64,000 nucleotides of DNA from Microbacterium sp. H1-D42. GTDB taxonomy: Bacteria; Actinomycetota; Actinomycetes; Actinomycetales; Microbacteriaceae. The DNA is taken from contig NZ_CP093342.1 in assembly GCF_022637555.1 (NCBI RefSeq), positions 1,736,001 to 1,800,000 on the forward strand, given 5' to 3'. The position numbers were made by a program, and so were the translations under genes. Below are positions 14,352 to 20,000 of the stretch, one piece after another. Numbering within the stretch: position 1 is the stretch's first letter; every line of letters begins with the position of its first letter. Under the pieces are notes generated by a model. That model was not told the origin of the DNA and did no database searches. It saw only the letters and a program-made list of their open reading frames with translations.

Positions 14352-14505
14352 TTTTTCCTCAGTTGTCGCACAGAGGAGGCGACAAGAAGCGGAGGGCCGT
14401 GAAGCTGTCGGTCGACGAGAAGTCTTCCCTGATGATCGGCGAGATGCCGACAACGCTGACGCTATCAGGTGCGGGAGGGAGAAAGGCCGGATCGGCCGTG
14501 AAGTG

Positions 14506-14578
14506 TGGGCGATACCGGACTCGAACCGATGACCTCTTCCGTGTGAAGGAAGCGCGCTACCAACTGCGCCAATCGCCC
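14506..14578 (-). tRNA. tRNA-Val (CAC)
   Basis: The minus strand starts GGGCGATTGGCGCAG and ends in ATCGCCCA. The anticodon stem is CTTCC/GGAAG with loop TTCACAC, giving anticodon CAC. The T arm has GGTTCGAGTCC. Acceptor arms pair perfectly over seven bases. CCA is not encoded. Confidence 0.95.
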
Positions 14579-14714
14579 ATGTGTAGTTGTCGTGTGCACT
14601 GTGGCACAGGTAGAAAGCATACCCGATCGCTGGAGTGGTTCCGGCACGCGGTGGGCGACCGGGCGTGGCGCATCTCGAGGGTCCGACGTGACACGCCCGG
14701 CTGCGTCACGCGGT

Positions 14715-14743
14715 TTGGTGATGGGCCGATCCTGGGATAATGT
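14715..14743 (+). promoter_or_regulatory. promoter of the tRNA-Gly/Cys/Val cluster
   Basis: TTGGTG at 14715-14720 followed 15-17 bp later by the A/T-rich GATAATGT (14736-14743) fits -35 and -10 elements. It is about 33 bp before tRNA-Gly. The rest of 14579-14775 shows nothing recognisable. Confidence 0.55.
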
Positions 14744-14775
14744 ATTTCAAGTGCCCGGGACACCGGGAACGAAAT

Positions 14776-14847
14776 GCGGATGTAGCGCAGTGGTAGCGCA
14801 TCACCTTGCCAAGGTGAGGGTCGCGAGTTCGAATCTCGTCATCCGCT
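14776..14847 (+). tRNA. tRNA-Gly (GCC)
   Basis: GCGGATG pairs with CATCCGC at the acceptor stem. The anticodon loop TGCCAAG lies between CACCT and GGTG arms, giving GCC. The T arm reads GCGAGTTCGAATCTCG. CCA is not encoded. Confidence 0.95.
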
Positions 14848-14852
14848 CGAGT

Positions 14853-14878
14853 GCAGGAGCCCCTTCGGGGGTTTCTGC
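14853..14878 (+). terminator. stable UUCG hairpin after tRNA-Gly
   Basis: GCAGGAGCCCC, tetraloop TTCG, GGGGTTTCTGC: an 11-bp stem with two G-U pairs. It sits between tRNA-Gly and tRNA-Cys without a U tract, so it may serve as a processing or partial termination signal. Confidence 0.5.
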
Positions 14879-14901
14879 ATGTGGGTTCGAATCCACCTCA
14901 T

Positions 14902-14972
14902 GGTGGCGTGGCCGAGAGGCTAGGCACCGGCCTGCAAAGCCGTTTACACGGGTTCGAATCCCGTCGCCACCT
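14902..14972 (+). tRNA. tRNA-Cys (GCA)
   Basis: Acceptor GGTGGCG pairs with CGCCACC. The anticodon loop TGCAAAG gives GCA. The T arm reads CGGGTTCGAATCCCG. CCA is not encoded. Confidence 0.95.
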
Positions 14973-14998
14973 CTCTGCACAACTGAATAGCCTTCTAG

Positions 14999-15070
14999 GC
15001 GCGATTGGCGCAGCGGTAGCGCGCTTCCCTGACACGGAAGAGGTCACTGGTTCGATCCCAGTATCGCGCA
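14999..15070 (+). tRNA. tRNA-Val (GAC)
   Basis: Acceptor GCGCGAT pairs with ATCGCGC. The anticodon loop CTGACAC within CTTCC/GGAAG gives GAC. It is very similar to the tRNA-Val(CAC) on the other strand about 420 bp away. CCA is not encoded. Confidence 0.95.
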
Positions 15071-15075
15071 CAGAC

Positions 15076-15859: not shown

Positions 15860-17254
15860 ATGTCGACTGACACGCTGCGCGTGGCGGCATCAGCCCCGCG
15901 CCATACCGAGCCGAAGGCCCCGCGACCCTGGTTCGTGCTCGCTCTGGCGGTCGCAGTCCTCACCTATTCGATGATGCAGACGATGCTGCTGCCAGTCCTG
16001 CCGGCACTGAAGGATGCCCTGCACACGGACGGGATGGGAGTGAGCTGGATCCTCACTGCCTACCTGCTCAGCGGTGCGGTGGCCGCCCCCGTACTCGGTT
16101 CGTTCGGAGACAGGTTCGGTCACCGTCGCATGCTGCTCGTCTCGATGGGCGTGTTCGTCGTCGGCAGCATCATCGCGGGCATCGCACCGAACCTGACGCT
16201 CGTGCTGATCGGTCGTGTGCTGCAGGGGGCATCCACGGCATCATTCCCACTCGCACTCGCGATCGTCAGCACGTACCTCTCCGGTGACGAACGGCGCTCG
16301 GCGACCGGATGGCTCAGCGGAACCGTCGGCCTCGGCGCCGGCATCGCGCTCGTGATCGGCGGGATCATCGCGGGAATCGCTCCCTGGCAGTGGCTGTTCT
16401 GGGTCGGCGCGGTCTTCGGAGTCCTGTCGATGGTGCTCGTCGCCGCCGCGGTGCCGGCGCGTCGCGCAACCGGGCAGGCGCGTGTCGACTACGCCGGAAT
16501 CACGCTGCTTGCCGTGCTGCTCGTCGGTGTGCTGCTGGTCGTGTCCCAGGCGTCGAGTTGGGGGATCACGTCGCCCGGCATCGTGGCAGCAGCCGTCATC
16601 GCGCTGCTGGCCGCCGTGGCGCTGATCGCCGTCGAGCGACGCGTCTCGGCGCCACTGCTCGACCTGCCGGTGCTGGGCCGCCCGACGATAGCGATCGGCA
16701 ACGCGCTGGGCGTGCTGCTCGGGTTCGTGCCCTACCTCTTCTACGTCGGCATGCCGATTCTGCTGCAGACGCCAGAGCCGGTCGGCGCCGGCATGGGAAC
16801 CCAGGCGACCGGCTGGGTGATGCTGCCTGGAACACTCGTCGCGTTCGTGGGCGGACGGTTCGCGTCGGTTCTCATGCGGTGGATGCGGTCGGCATGGGTC
16901 TCCGCGCTGGCCATGGTGCTCATCGCGGTGGGAGCGCTCGGCATCGCCGCATGGCCGCACGACCTCATCGCGAACATCGTCTTCTACGCCGTGATGGGGC
17001 TGGGCGCCGGGATCGGCATGACGGTGGTGGCGGATCTAATCGCGCGAGGGTCTGAGCCGCACGAACTCGGCGGGCTGCTGGGCGTGAACGGCGTACTGCG
17101 CACGATCGGCTCGTCGTTCGGTGCGCCTGTGGCGATGCTGATCCTGGCCGCCGCTGCCGGCGTCACCGGGTTCGTCGTGCTGTTCCTCGTCGCTGCGCTC
17201 GCGAGCATCGTCGGCGCGGTGCTGTCGCTGTGCCTGCGGACCGGAGCGCGCTGA
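15860..17254 (+). CDS. MFS transporter, drug/H+ antiporter type
   Basis: 464-aa polytopic protein with about fourteen hydrophobic segments, which fits the DHA2-like multidrug exporters. The loop 2-3 motif is seen as GSFGDRFGHRRML, and the motif C-like glycine-rich region lies in helix 5 (SGTVGLGAGIALVIGGIIAG). GGAG precedes the ATG. The divergent TetR regulator and shared operator suggest induction by a toxic substrate, but the substrate cannot be read from sequence. Confidence 0.88.
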   Translation: MSTDTLRVAASAPRHTEPKAPRPWFVLALAVAVLTYSMMQTMLLPVLPALKDALHTDGMGVSWILTAYLLSGAVAAPVLGSFGDRFGHRRMLLVSMGVFVVGSIIAGIAPNLTLVLIGRVLQGASTASFPLALAIVSTYLSGDERRSATGWLSGTVGLGAGIALVIGGIIAGIAPWQWLFWVGAVFGVLSMVLVAAAVPARRATGQARVDYAGITLLAVLLVGVLLVVSQASSWGITSPGIVAAAVIALLAAVALIAVERRVSAPLLDLPVLGRPTIAIGNALGVLLGFVPYLFYVGMPILLQTPEPVGAGMGTQATGWVMLPGTLVAFVGGRFASVLMRWMRSAWVSALAMVLIAVGALGIAAWPHDLIANIVFYAVMGLGAGIGMTVVADLIARGSEPHELGGLLGVNGVLRTIGSSFGAPVAMLILAAAAGVTGFVVLFLVAALASIVGAVLSLCLRTGAR

Positions 17255-17304
17255 GCGCAACGGGGGCATCCGGCAGTGTTTCCGGATGCCACGGGGGAGG
17301 CGCG

Positions 17305-17310
17305 TAGACT
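17305..17310 (+). promoter_or_regulatory. -10 element of the thrS leader transcript
   Basis: TAGACT is placed so that transcription would begin at or within a base or two of the leader ATG at 17317, giving a leaderless leader peptide. The -35 region (around 17279-17287) is poor. The GGGGGAGG at 17293-17300 is too far from the ATG to be its ribosome binding site. Confidence 0.45.
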
Positions 17311-17316
17311 CAACCC

Positions 17317-17385
17317 ATGGAATCCGTGTCGACCCTTCCCGTGACCTCTGTCACCGGCGTCGTCACGCGAACTACGAGCGCCTGA
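17317..17385 (+). CDS. threonine-rich leader peptide of thrS
   Basis: A 22-codon open frame: MESVSTLPVTSVTGVVTRTT then SA and stop. Six of 22 residues are Thr (codons 6, 10, 13, 17, 19, 20) and five are Val. It sits 66 nt before the start of threonyl-tRNA synthetase, and hairpins that exclude each other begin at its end. This is the arrangement of ribosome-mediated attenuation, where stalling at Thr codons senses charged tRNA-Thr. Translation is inferred from the layout. The reading frame and composition are seen directly. Confidence 0.7.
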   Translation: MESVSTLPVTSVTGVVTRTTSA

Positions 17386-17409
17386 GCGGGCAGGGCGCCA
17401 TGCGCCCGC
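17378..17409 (+). promoter_or_regulatory. attenuator: alternative hairpins before thrS
   Basis: A tight hairpin GGGCGC (17393-17398), loop CAT, GCGCCC (17402-17407) can form. Its 5' arm also pairs with GCGCC at 17378-17382, inside the last leader codons, with a 9-nt or longer loop. The two structures are mutually exclusive. A ribosome at the leader stop would cover 17378-17385 and allow the first hairpin; one stalled on the Thr codons at 17365-17376 would leave 17378 free for the second. GCGGGC (17386-17391) can also pair with GCCCGC (17404-17409). There is no U tract. Confidence 0.55.
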
Positions 17410-17451
17410 AGCTGAGCCGACTCATTCCATCGTCTATCAGGAGAAACCCCC

Positions 17452-19464
17452 GTGTCAGACAACGCCCAGCCCAGCGCCGACAAGCGCGACGGCTTCGCCC
17501 TGTTCACCGACCGATCCGTCATCGCCATGCAGGTGAACGGCGACCTCAAGGATCTCGCGGCCACCGTCACCGAAAGTGACATCGTCGAGCCGGTCACGAT
17601 CGACAGCCCTCTCGGGCTCAGCATCCTGCGTCACTCGACAGCGCACGTGCTCGCGCAGGCAGTGCAGCGCATCCGGCCGCAGTCCAACCTCGGCATCGGA
17701 CCGCCCATCACCGACGGCTTCTACTACGACTTCGGTGTCGACGAGCCCTTCACGCCCGAGGACCTCAAGTCCATCTCGAAGGAGATGCAACGCATCATCC
17801 GCGATGGGCAGCGCTTCACCCGTCGCGTCGTCACCGAGGAAGAGGCACGAACAGAACTCGCGCACGAGCCGTTCAAGCTCGAGCTGATCGAGCTCGCGGG
17901 CGGCCCCGGCTCTGGTGCGGATGCTGCCGAAGGAGCCTCCGCCGAGATCGGCGCCGGCGAGCTGACCATCTACGACAATGTCACCAAGGATGGCGAAGTC
18001 GCGTGGAAGGACCTCTGCCGTGGCCCCCACGTGCCGACCACCCGGATGATCGGCAACGGCTGGGATCTCACCCGCGTCGCCGCGGCCTACTGGCGCGGCA
18101 GCGAGAAGAACCCGCAGCTGCAGCGCATCTACGGCACGGCCTGGCCCACCAAGGACGAGCTGCGCGCCTACCAGGAGCGGCTGGCCGAGGCCGAGCGCCG
18201 CGACCACCGCAAGCTCGGCGTCGAGATGGACCTCTTCTCGTTCCCCGATGAGATCGGCTCTGGTCTGGCGGTGTTCCATCCCAAGGGCGGCATCATCCGC
18301 TACGAGATCGAGGAGAACCTGCGCCGTCACCTGCTGCGCAACGGCTACGACGTCGTCAACTCGCCGCACATCACCAAGAAGGATCTGTTCCAGACTTCAG
18401 GGCACCTGCAGACCTACGCAGATGGCATGTTCCCGCCGATGCACCTCGACGAGGTCGTCGACGACGAGGGCAACGTCACCCGTCAGGGCCAGGACTACTA
18501 CCTCAAGCCGATGAACTGCCCGTTCCACAACCTGATCTTCCGCTCTCGCGGTCGCAGCTACCGCGAGCTGCCCCTGCGCCTGGCAGAATTCGGCACCGTG
18601 TACCGGTACGAGAAGAGCGGCACGCTCTCTGGCCTGACCCGCGTGCGGGGGCTGACGCAGGACGACGCGCACATCTACGTCACCCAGGATCAGGTGCGCG
18701 AAGAGCTCACCACCAACCTCAACCTGGTGCTCGAGCTGCTGCGCGACTACGGGCTCAACGACTTCTACCTCGAACTGTCGACCAACGAGATCGGCAACCC
18801 GAAGTTCCTCGGCGAGCCAGAGCAGTGGACCACTGCGATCGACACGCTGCGTGAGGTCGCTGTCGAGTCGGGTCTCGACCTCGTCGACGACCCGGGCGGA
18901 GCGGCCTTCTACGGCCCGAAGATCTCGGTGCAGGCACGCGATGCGATCGGTCGCACCTGGCAGATGTCGACGATCCAGCTGGACTTCAACCAGCCGGAGC
19001 GCTTCGAACTCGAGTACACCGGCCCCGACGGCGCCAAGCACCGTCCGGTGATGATCCACCGCGCGCTGCTCGGCTCCGTGGAGCGCTTCTTCGCGATCCT
19101 ACTCGAGCACTACGCCGGCGACTTCCCGCTGTGGCTTGCGCCCGCGCAGGTGGTCGGGGTGCCGGTCGCCGATGATTTCGGCCCGTACCTGGATGAGGTC
19201 ATCTCGCAGCTGCGTGCAGCGGGCATCCGGGCTGAGGTCGACCACTCCGACGACCGGATGCAGAAGAAGATCCGCAACCACACCACCGCCAAGGTGCCGC
19301 TGATCCTGATCGCCGGTGCGCAGGACCGCGACGCCGGCACCGTGTCGTTCCGGTTCCGCGACGGCTCGCAGGAGAACGGCGTGCCGATCGCGACCGCGAT
19401 CGAGCGCATCCGCACCGCCGTCGCGAGCCACGCGCGGGTGATGACGGCAGAGGATCTCGCGTGA
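17452..19464 (+). CDS. thrS: threonyl-tRNA synthetase
   Basis: Class II aminoacyl-tRNA synthetase of 670 aa that charges tRNA-Thr and edits Ser-tRNA-Thr. Visible parts are a short N-terminal TGS-like region, the N2 editing domain with HSTAH at 61-65 and a later CRGPHVP, motif 2 around [20 protein letters not shown] with DDAHIY, motif 3 near [11 protein letters not shown], and the C-terminal anticodon-binding domain. GTG start with AGGAG at 17439. The stop overlaps the GTG of the HIT gene. Expression is probably controlled by the Thr-rich leader upstream. Confidence 0.97.
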
Positions 19465-20000
19465 CTGACGTCGAGGACGCCGGCCGGCTGGCCGGCGTCC
19501 CCGACGAGTTCCAGCGGCTGTGGACCCCGCACCGGATGGCGTACATCCAGGCTGGACCCGAACCGCTGCGCGAGGAGTGCCCGTTCTGCGAGGCGCCGAA
19601 GCACGATGATGTCGAGCGGCTGATCGTCGCGCGCGGCAAGACGGCGTACGTGCTGTTGAACCTGTTCCCGTACAACTCCGGCCACCTGCTCGTGTGCCCC
19701 TACCGCCATATCGCGACGTACGACCAGGCGACGGCCGAGGAGGTCGCCGAGATCGGTGAGCTCACCCAGATCGGCATGCGGGTGCTGCGCGGGGTCTCGA
19801 ACTGCGACGGGTTCAACCTGGGCATGAATCAGGGCGCTGTCGGCGGCGCGGGAGTGGATGCCCACCTGCATCAGCACGTCGTGCCGAGGTGGACGTCGGA
19901 TGCCAACTTCTTCCCGATCATCGCCAAGACCAAGGCTCTGCCGCAGCTGCTCGGCGAGGTGCGCGAGGCCGTGGCCGGGGCCTGGCCAGCAGGCGCCTGA
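19461..20000 (+). CDS. HIT domain protein (Ap4A phosphorylase-like)
   Basis: 179-aa nucleotide-binding hydrolase or transferase of the histidine triad superfamily. The triad HLHQH occupies residues 135-139 in [13 protein letters not shown] Cys-x-x-Cys-type start (ECPFCEAPK) and the length resemble actinobacterial Ap4A phosphorylase/HIT proteins, which commonly follow thrS. That pairing makes sense because aminoacyl-tRNA synthetases produce Ap4A as a side product. The GTG start overlaps the thrS stop by four bases, so translation is coupled. Confidence 0.92.

Follow-up and report, generated by a model that had tools for sequence, protein, structure and literature searches.

A conserved element in front of thrS

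Upstream of thrS, the gene for threonyl-tRNA synthetase (ThrRS), Microbacterium sp. H1-D42 carries a short open reading frame whose end runs into a conserved RNA core. Both lie in a 64,000-nucleotide stretch of its genome (contig NZ_CP093342.1, positions 1,736,001 to 1,800,000), here called the window, and together they form the element described in this work (Table 1). A first-pass annotation of the window had proposed that a threonine (Thr)-rich frame between a -10 element and thrS encodes a leader peptide. The frame is indeed present: it has 22 codons, six of them for Thr, and its ATG stands 7 bases past the TAGACT hexamer. A search of positions 16500-18500 against Rfam, with expect values (E) up to 10, gave three matches, none over the leader and none of them a T-box. 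The element is conserved and matches no Rfam family.

Table 1. Features of the thrS leader region in the window, and stem-loops at other thrS loci (locus coordinates)
Feature	Position	Strand	Basis
-10 element TAGACT, leader promoter	17305-17310	+	sequence read
Leader open reading frame, MESVSTLPVTSVTGVVTRTTSA followed by stop; ATG at 17317 is the predicted +1 (leaderless)	17317-17385	+	sequence comparison
Invariant codon pair Arg (CGA)-Thr (ACU in the window), proposed sensing site	17368-17373	+	
Hairpin P1, GCCU-GAGC-GGGC; includes the leader stop UGA at 17383-17385	17380-17391	+	RNAalifold consensus
Hairpin P2, GGGCGC-CAU-GCGCCC (second hairpin of the first-pass annotation)	17393-17407	+	covariation
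Conserved 3' strand, GCAGCUGAG in the window, GAAGCUGAG in the majority of loci	17408-17416	+	
Candidate pseudoknot helix, GCU with AGC of the P1 loop	17411-17413 with 17385-17387	+	
thrS Shine-Dalgarno AGGAG	17439-17443	+	sequence
thrS, threonyl-tRNA synthetase, GTG start	17452-19464	+	
Micrococcaceae stem-loop	L082:1350-1412, L084:1350-1412, L085:1354-1416, L086:1352-1414, L089:1400-1462, L094:1362-1424		

Leader frame and leaderless start

Leaderless starts were sought by scanning 100 bases per locus for an ATG or GTG 6-7 bases past a TAnnnT hexamer. Exactly one such start, in frame with the stop in the core and with no inner stop, was found in 137 of 138 loci, which agrees with the leaderless peptide that had been suggested for the window. 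The hexamers of these 137 loci included TAGACT (85), TAGGAT (21), TAGAAT (12) and TACACT (10), and the lone exception (L186) has the weaker hexamer TAGACC. With three strong loci found later and two divergent ones added, a single in-frame leaderless start is present in 142 of 143 distinct loci, so the frame is conserved in relatives. A conserved -35 element was looked for across the element loci and none was found; a promoter consensus scan around the leader (17200-17520) called no promoter.

The leaders fall into 11 length classes spanning 14-28 codons, which implies many insertions or deletions, every one of them frame-preserving. Among 126 distinct leaders, Thr accounts for 18.4% of residues in the leader frame; when the frame is shifted, its share is 4.7% or 4.1%. 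The comparison supports the view that the frame is translated in the thrS mRNA from a leaderless start.

A fixed Arg-Thr codon pair

Thr-richness did not hold up as a general trait, as the number of Thr residues ranges from 1 to 7 among the 126 distinct leaders and only one Thr position is fixed. This position belongs to a codon pair: CGA followed by ACG (120) or ACT (23) occurs in all 143 loci, at codons -5 and -4 from the stop, with the CGA-ACG pair two codons nearer to the stop in the two divergent loci. The search expression that collected these loci fixed GCC, GAGCGGGC and GCTGA and left the codon pair free. Neither codon choice follows the usage in 42 thrS genes, where CGA makes up 3.2% of Arg codons and ACC, which is never used in the fixed pair, makes up 59.2% of Thr codons. 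Codon -6 specifies Thr in 91 of 124 leaders. The pair stands 6 variable bases 5' of the RNA core.

The RNA core

Past the codon pair and these 6 bases follow GCCUGAGCGGGC, a purine (R), a 6-pair hairpin (P2) whose loop usually has 3-5 bases, and GAAGCUGAG. Column identity is 100% in the core, parts of which the collecting pattern had fixed beforehand, whereas the 6-base spacer reaches 46% and the loop of P2 37%; a covariance model without that demand added just two variants. P2 itself, drawn in the first-pass annotation as GGGCGC at 17393 paired with GCGCCC at 17402, is present and covaries across loci. Its cells are paired in 99.5% of cases, and both-side changes occur in 3 of the 6 pairs. 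These amount to 40 cells, compared with a shuffle value of 11.7, and the signal collapses in slid controls; the count of three pairs with a both-side change was matched by 36 of 500 shuffles. Since P2 covaries and tolerates G-U pairs, selection appears to act on the RNA and not on the DNA.

The other hairpin, P1, comes from an RNAalifold consensus and is kept in two natural variants (L256 and L257) with a U.G pair changed to C-G. In these variants the stop has moved two codons upstream (UAG) and the former UGA reads CGA; the CGA-ACG pair, the 6-base spacing, P1 and AGC/GCU are all retained. The variants thus indicate that it is the RNA of the core, and not a stop codon in it, that is conserved, and that codon pair and core stand a fixed distance apart. 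The AGC of the P1 loop can pair with the GCU of GAAGCUGAG, which would give an H-type pseudoknot; we infer that P1, and perhaps this pseudoknot, are part of the core.

An outer helix around P2 (CU.AGC/GCU.AG, included in model R1) was discarded: its U-A pair is broken in both divergent variants and its outermost pair is lost in 7 of 138 loci. The inner AGC/GCU part of this helix coincides with the pseudoknot helix. Nor did we use a basal helix joining the spacer to the bases past the core; its mean energy was -8.27 kcal/mol versus -7.80 kcal/mol after permutation, over 105 distinct pairs whose relatedness was not removed (lowest of 2000 permutations, -8.42).

Distribution and history

The arrangement was shared by 20 of 110 fetched thrS loci, all from Microbacterium, and the genus set used below is taken to be Microbacterium on the basis of the named loci. 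Among its 366 genomes, the core pattern matched 147, and the covariance model at E up to 0.01 matched 146, 142 of these below 1e-8. Of the four remaining model matches, those in G348 and G139 are divergent and adjoin thrS; those in G222 and G113 lie away from thrS and count as chance. Inspected by eye, five of the pattern genomes (G063, G119, G136, G032, G294) held a chance-type match only, and G137, G173 and G363 held one in addition to a true match. A pattern match (L112) and a relaxed match (L244) without thrS were likewise dropped as chance. The element is present in 144 of the 366 genomes, and the proposed link of the leader to thrS is supported.

Wider sampling was done with genomes drawn evenly from each rank, under stricter filters above 40 genomes that can miss weak matches. 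Nine weak model matches (E 0.013-0.09) were obtained from 249 genomes of the family, none adjoining thrS; 248 genomes of the order gave no match outside the genus at E up to 0.01, and 246 genomes of the phylum gave two at E 0.004, with no thrS at either locus. Seven of 80 named loci (L031-L110) were strong model matches, all of them Microbacterium, and the rest had E of 0.55 or worse. In these samples, then, the model gave nothing above chance level beyond Microbacterium, and no second genus was seen to carry the element.

The thrS gene was matched in 59 of 59 genus genomes, H1-D42 included, at 64-91% identity in the best piece for the others; the closest named relative by thrS is M. arabinogalactanolyticum (92% identical). 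A thrS tree was built with 49 rows, the genus clade holding 42; rows with the element number 20 and are spread over the three main branches of that clade. At least 5 changes are needed to explain the element, counted without distinguishing gain from loss, and none of 500 shuffles gave a number as low. The simplest reading of this pattern suggests that the element is old in the genus and has been lost several times. In G007 (C1:820040-822009) and G019 (C14:37550-39515), thrS is in two overlapping pieces, one with an inner TGA, perhaps through sequencing errors or real frameshifts.

Other thrS loci

Loose scans of 90 other thrS loci found several short frames holding Thr, with a leaderless-type frame in 12 of the 90. 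None of the 90 has the Microbacterium core. Leaderless-type frames with at least 3 Thr each occur within about 110 bases upstream of thrS in L071 (Arcanobacterium; MQKAKCPCIAFSMTRRIRCTLKLTAR) and L088 (VPAGAFTITRRPSTCPHRSS), which are possibly further thrS leaders or else chance.

At six loci, most of them Micrococcaceae by name, the region upstream of thrS carries a conserved leader, GGCUGGCUGUGGCCACCGUAUGCCACAAGCC..UGAAGCC, with variable forms and one stem-loop. This stem-loop has 13 pairs, two of which show both-side changes among the six sequences, and some rows break pairs; CGU lies in or near the loop in five of the six. In E. coli, ThrRS autoregulates thrS translationally through an anticodon-like operator in its own mRNA. 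The Micrococcaceae stem-loop recalls that operator, so thrS in these relatives may be controlled in a different way.

A model for Thr-dependent control

In the model that we propose, the first three bases of the thrS mRNA would be the start codon of the 22-codon leader peptide. Ribosomes would initiate at this 5' AUG and read on to the Arg(CGA)-Thr(ACN) pair 6 bases 5' of the core. With ample Thr-tRNA, the ribosome would finish and depart at the stop, the core (P1, P2 and perhaps the pseudoknot) would fold, and thrS expression would be low. With scarce Thr-tRNA, it would wait at the pair, with its P site on CGA and its A site on the Thr codon. Counted from the first base in the P site, the footprint of a ribosome extends about 15 bases downstream and from CGA would reach the 5' arm of P1, so that a stalled ribosome would block P1 and the pseudoknot. 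The core would then stay unfolded and thrS would be expressed. We infer both the direction of control and the blocking of P1 by the footprint.

The in-frame leaderless start, the fixed codon pair with its spacing, the conservation of the core and the covariation of P2 all emerge from sequence comparison. On this basis we regard it as moderately probable that thrS is Thr-sensing through a leaderless leader peptide, on which a ribosome stalled at a Thr codon keeps the core unfolded. A more novel version is tentative and less probable: a small H-type pseudoknot (GCCY/GGGC plus AGC/GCU, with P2 in the long loop), as a new kind of ribosome-gated element, may lie 6 bases behind the rare Arg codon CGA and one Thr codon. 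The slow CGA would position the ribosome, and Thr-tRNA charging could then be read out at just one Thr codon. Control of thrS would in this case need neither a terminator nor a hidden Shine-Dalgarno sequence.

Several observations weigh against the model. The loci are related by descent, so locus counts are not independent events. Seven of the 126 distinct leaders contain one Thr only, and the invariance of CGA and ACG/ACU at the nucleotide level may in part reflect RNA structure, not decoding. P1 is nearly invariant, its support being this invariance plus one U-to-C change; the AGC/GCU pairs are invariant too, and the pseudoknot helix gives no covariation signal. The pseudoknot loop is also short: unless the U.G opens, a single base has to bridge three pairs. 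In nested folding, P1 has a mean probability of 0.16 and is near zero in the window, where an outer helix that uses these AGC/GCU pairs is likelier (0.38). At the output step, the bases 3' of P2 are GAAGCUGAG or GCAGCUGAG instead of a U-tract, and a terminator scan of 17200-17520 found none. The mean unpaired probability of the Shine-Dalgarno sequence was 0.365 with a stalled ribosome, 0.332 with a ribosome at the stop and 0.352 on the empty RNA (137 loci; nested folding only, tertiary structure being outside the model).

A translational attenuator that sequesters the Shine-Dalgarno sequence was rejected, since this predicted exposure hardly changes with ribosome position. The output of control may be transcription termination of a kind other than the usual intrinsic type, translation or mRNA decay. 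The spacer between core and Shine-Dalgarno sequence has 42% C and 18% G (95 distinct spacers) versus 32% C and 27% G in 21 element-free thrS loci. At about 27 bases it is short, though its richness in C is suggestive of Rho-type termination. Rho termination in M. tuberculosis is reportedly shaped by translated upstream open reading frames.

A TAGCCT-like hexamer is present between the core and the thrS Shine-Dalgarno sequence in 62 of 138 element loci (exactly TAGCCT in 57 of these) and is missing from the window and from its closest relatives (L002, L003, L034). Judged by eye, most element-free Microbacterium loci also have TAGCCT or a similar hexamer near the thrS Shine-Dalgarno sequence. 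In the element loci it is probably a second thrS promoter behind the element, and many species may thus also transcribe thrS from downstream of it.

Alternative explanations

The core could instead be an operator to which ThrRS, a different protein or a ligand binds, with the leader frame mainly keeping ribosomes moving through. Conservation at paired and unpaired bases alike exceeds what a simple attenuator hairpin needs, the expression platform that ribosome-dependent control requires was found neither by the terminator scan nor in the Shine-Dalgarno exposure, and the different stem-loop at the six Micrococcaceae loci adds a further point in its favor. An operator leaves unexplained, however, the leader frame, the leaderless start and the Thr codon right after CGA, which recur in 142-143 of 143 loci, and no Rfam family matches. 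We therefore consider it unlikely, if the most serious of the alternatives.

Classical attenuation, as drawn in the first-pass annotation, would set an antiterminator (GCGCC at 17378 with GGCGC at 17394) against P2 as terminator. Both pairings exist in the window, and P2 is the one that covaries. The antiterminator, in contrast, is not conserved: it pairs in 76.4% of cells, shows no both-side change and is equalled by 500 of 500 shuffles, and beyond the basal-helix test no systematic search for other conserved antiterminators was made. As the second hairpin has no U-tract and the terminator scan was negative, this mechanism is improbable. It is just as doubtful that the leader is a non-regulatory upstream open reading frame merely aiding translation of the message: leader genes may raise expression through reinitiation, yet the 59-120 bases or so from leader stop to thrS start (start extrapolated from tblastn) compare poorly with the stop-to-start peak of 10-11 given for Actinobacteria (both points from PMC4833913), and this reading would account neither for the Thr content nor for the fixed codon pair or the RNA core.

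Neighboring genes

Upstream, a 464-aa frame (15860-17254, + strand) with many hydrophobic stretches resembles a transporter and ends 62 bases 5' of the leader start. A 179-aa frame (19461-20000, + strand) overlaps the end of thrS with its start and is probably in the same operon; it contains a stretch that we take to resemble a HIT-family protein motif. Four clustered tRNA genes (Val, Gly, Cys, Val) lie at 14505-15071.

Relation to known leaders

T-boxes and the autoregulation by E. coli ThrRS control tRNA synthetase genes by charging state or product. No T-box match was obtained here, and control appears to run via a translated leader. In mycobacteria, leaderless polycysteine short open reading frames are reportedly cysteine-responsive attenuators (Canestrari 2020). 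They are likewise leaderless short frames with codons of the regulated amino acid; they serve cysteine genes, whereas the Microbacterium element stands before thrS and has one fixed Arg-Thr pair and a conserved core.

The conserved candidate pseudoknot has a counterpart in the LEU element before leuA, which according to the 2005 Actinobacteria survey by Seliverstov and others also combines a leader peptide with such a structure and lacks a classical terminator (PMC1262725). Ahead of threonine operons, its authors saw no RNA structure that was conserved. LEU elements pair Leu codons with the leuA Shine-Dalgarno sequence and are said there to have no conserved unpaired bases (PMC1262725); neither trait was seen in the thrS element. 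In the thrS leader, pairing of the spacer with bases past the core is weakly above permutation, and Shine-Dalgarno exposure is unchanged. In the H1-D42 genome, leuA (1576767 of G000:C1) is preceded by a leader of the leaderless type that is rich in Leu, MPLGGLLLLSCRGES, at about 1340-1500 of locus L261. Its region carries CTTCTTCTT and, farther downstream, a AAGAAGAAG, in keeping with the published description of the LEU element (PMC1262725). The best local alignment between this leuA leader and the thrS element spans 9 bases, which speaks against homology with LEU. H1-D42 thus seems to carry leaderless amino-acid leaders at two genes, leuA and thrS.

The first-pass annotation knew of no established leader-peptide attenuation of thrS in actinobacteria. 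In this it needs correction, as the 2021 reannotation of Streptomyces lividans already lists a leaderless thrL, MKRVRPFLETTPGFVPAR, with 2 Thr upstream of thrS (PMC8079986), the one published listing of a thrS leader in actinobacteria that we found. As described there, thrL is similar in being leaderless, in preceding thrS, and in having one hairpin and no uridine-rich stretch, and its peptide has no Arg-Thr pair, unlike the Microbacterium leader (PMC8079986). Eight Streptomyces thrS loci, a set without the S. lividans record, contained neither MKRVRPFLETTPGFVPAR nor the core nor a model match. The Microbacterium element, a leaderless leader peptide before thrS, differs from thrL in peptide and in core, and to this extent the claim of a new arrangement stands. 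It would represent a well-conserved actinobacterial example of a tRNA synthetase gene controlled through a leaderless leader peptide, and its natural variants point to the bases that are informative.
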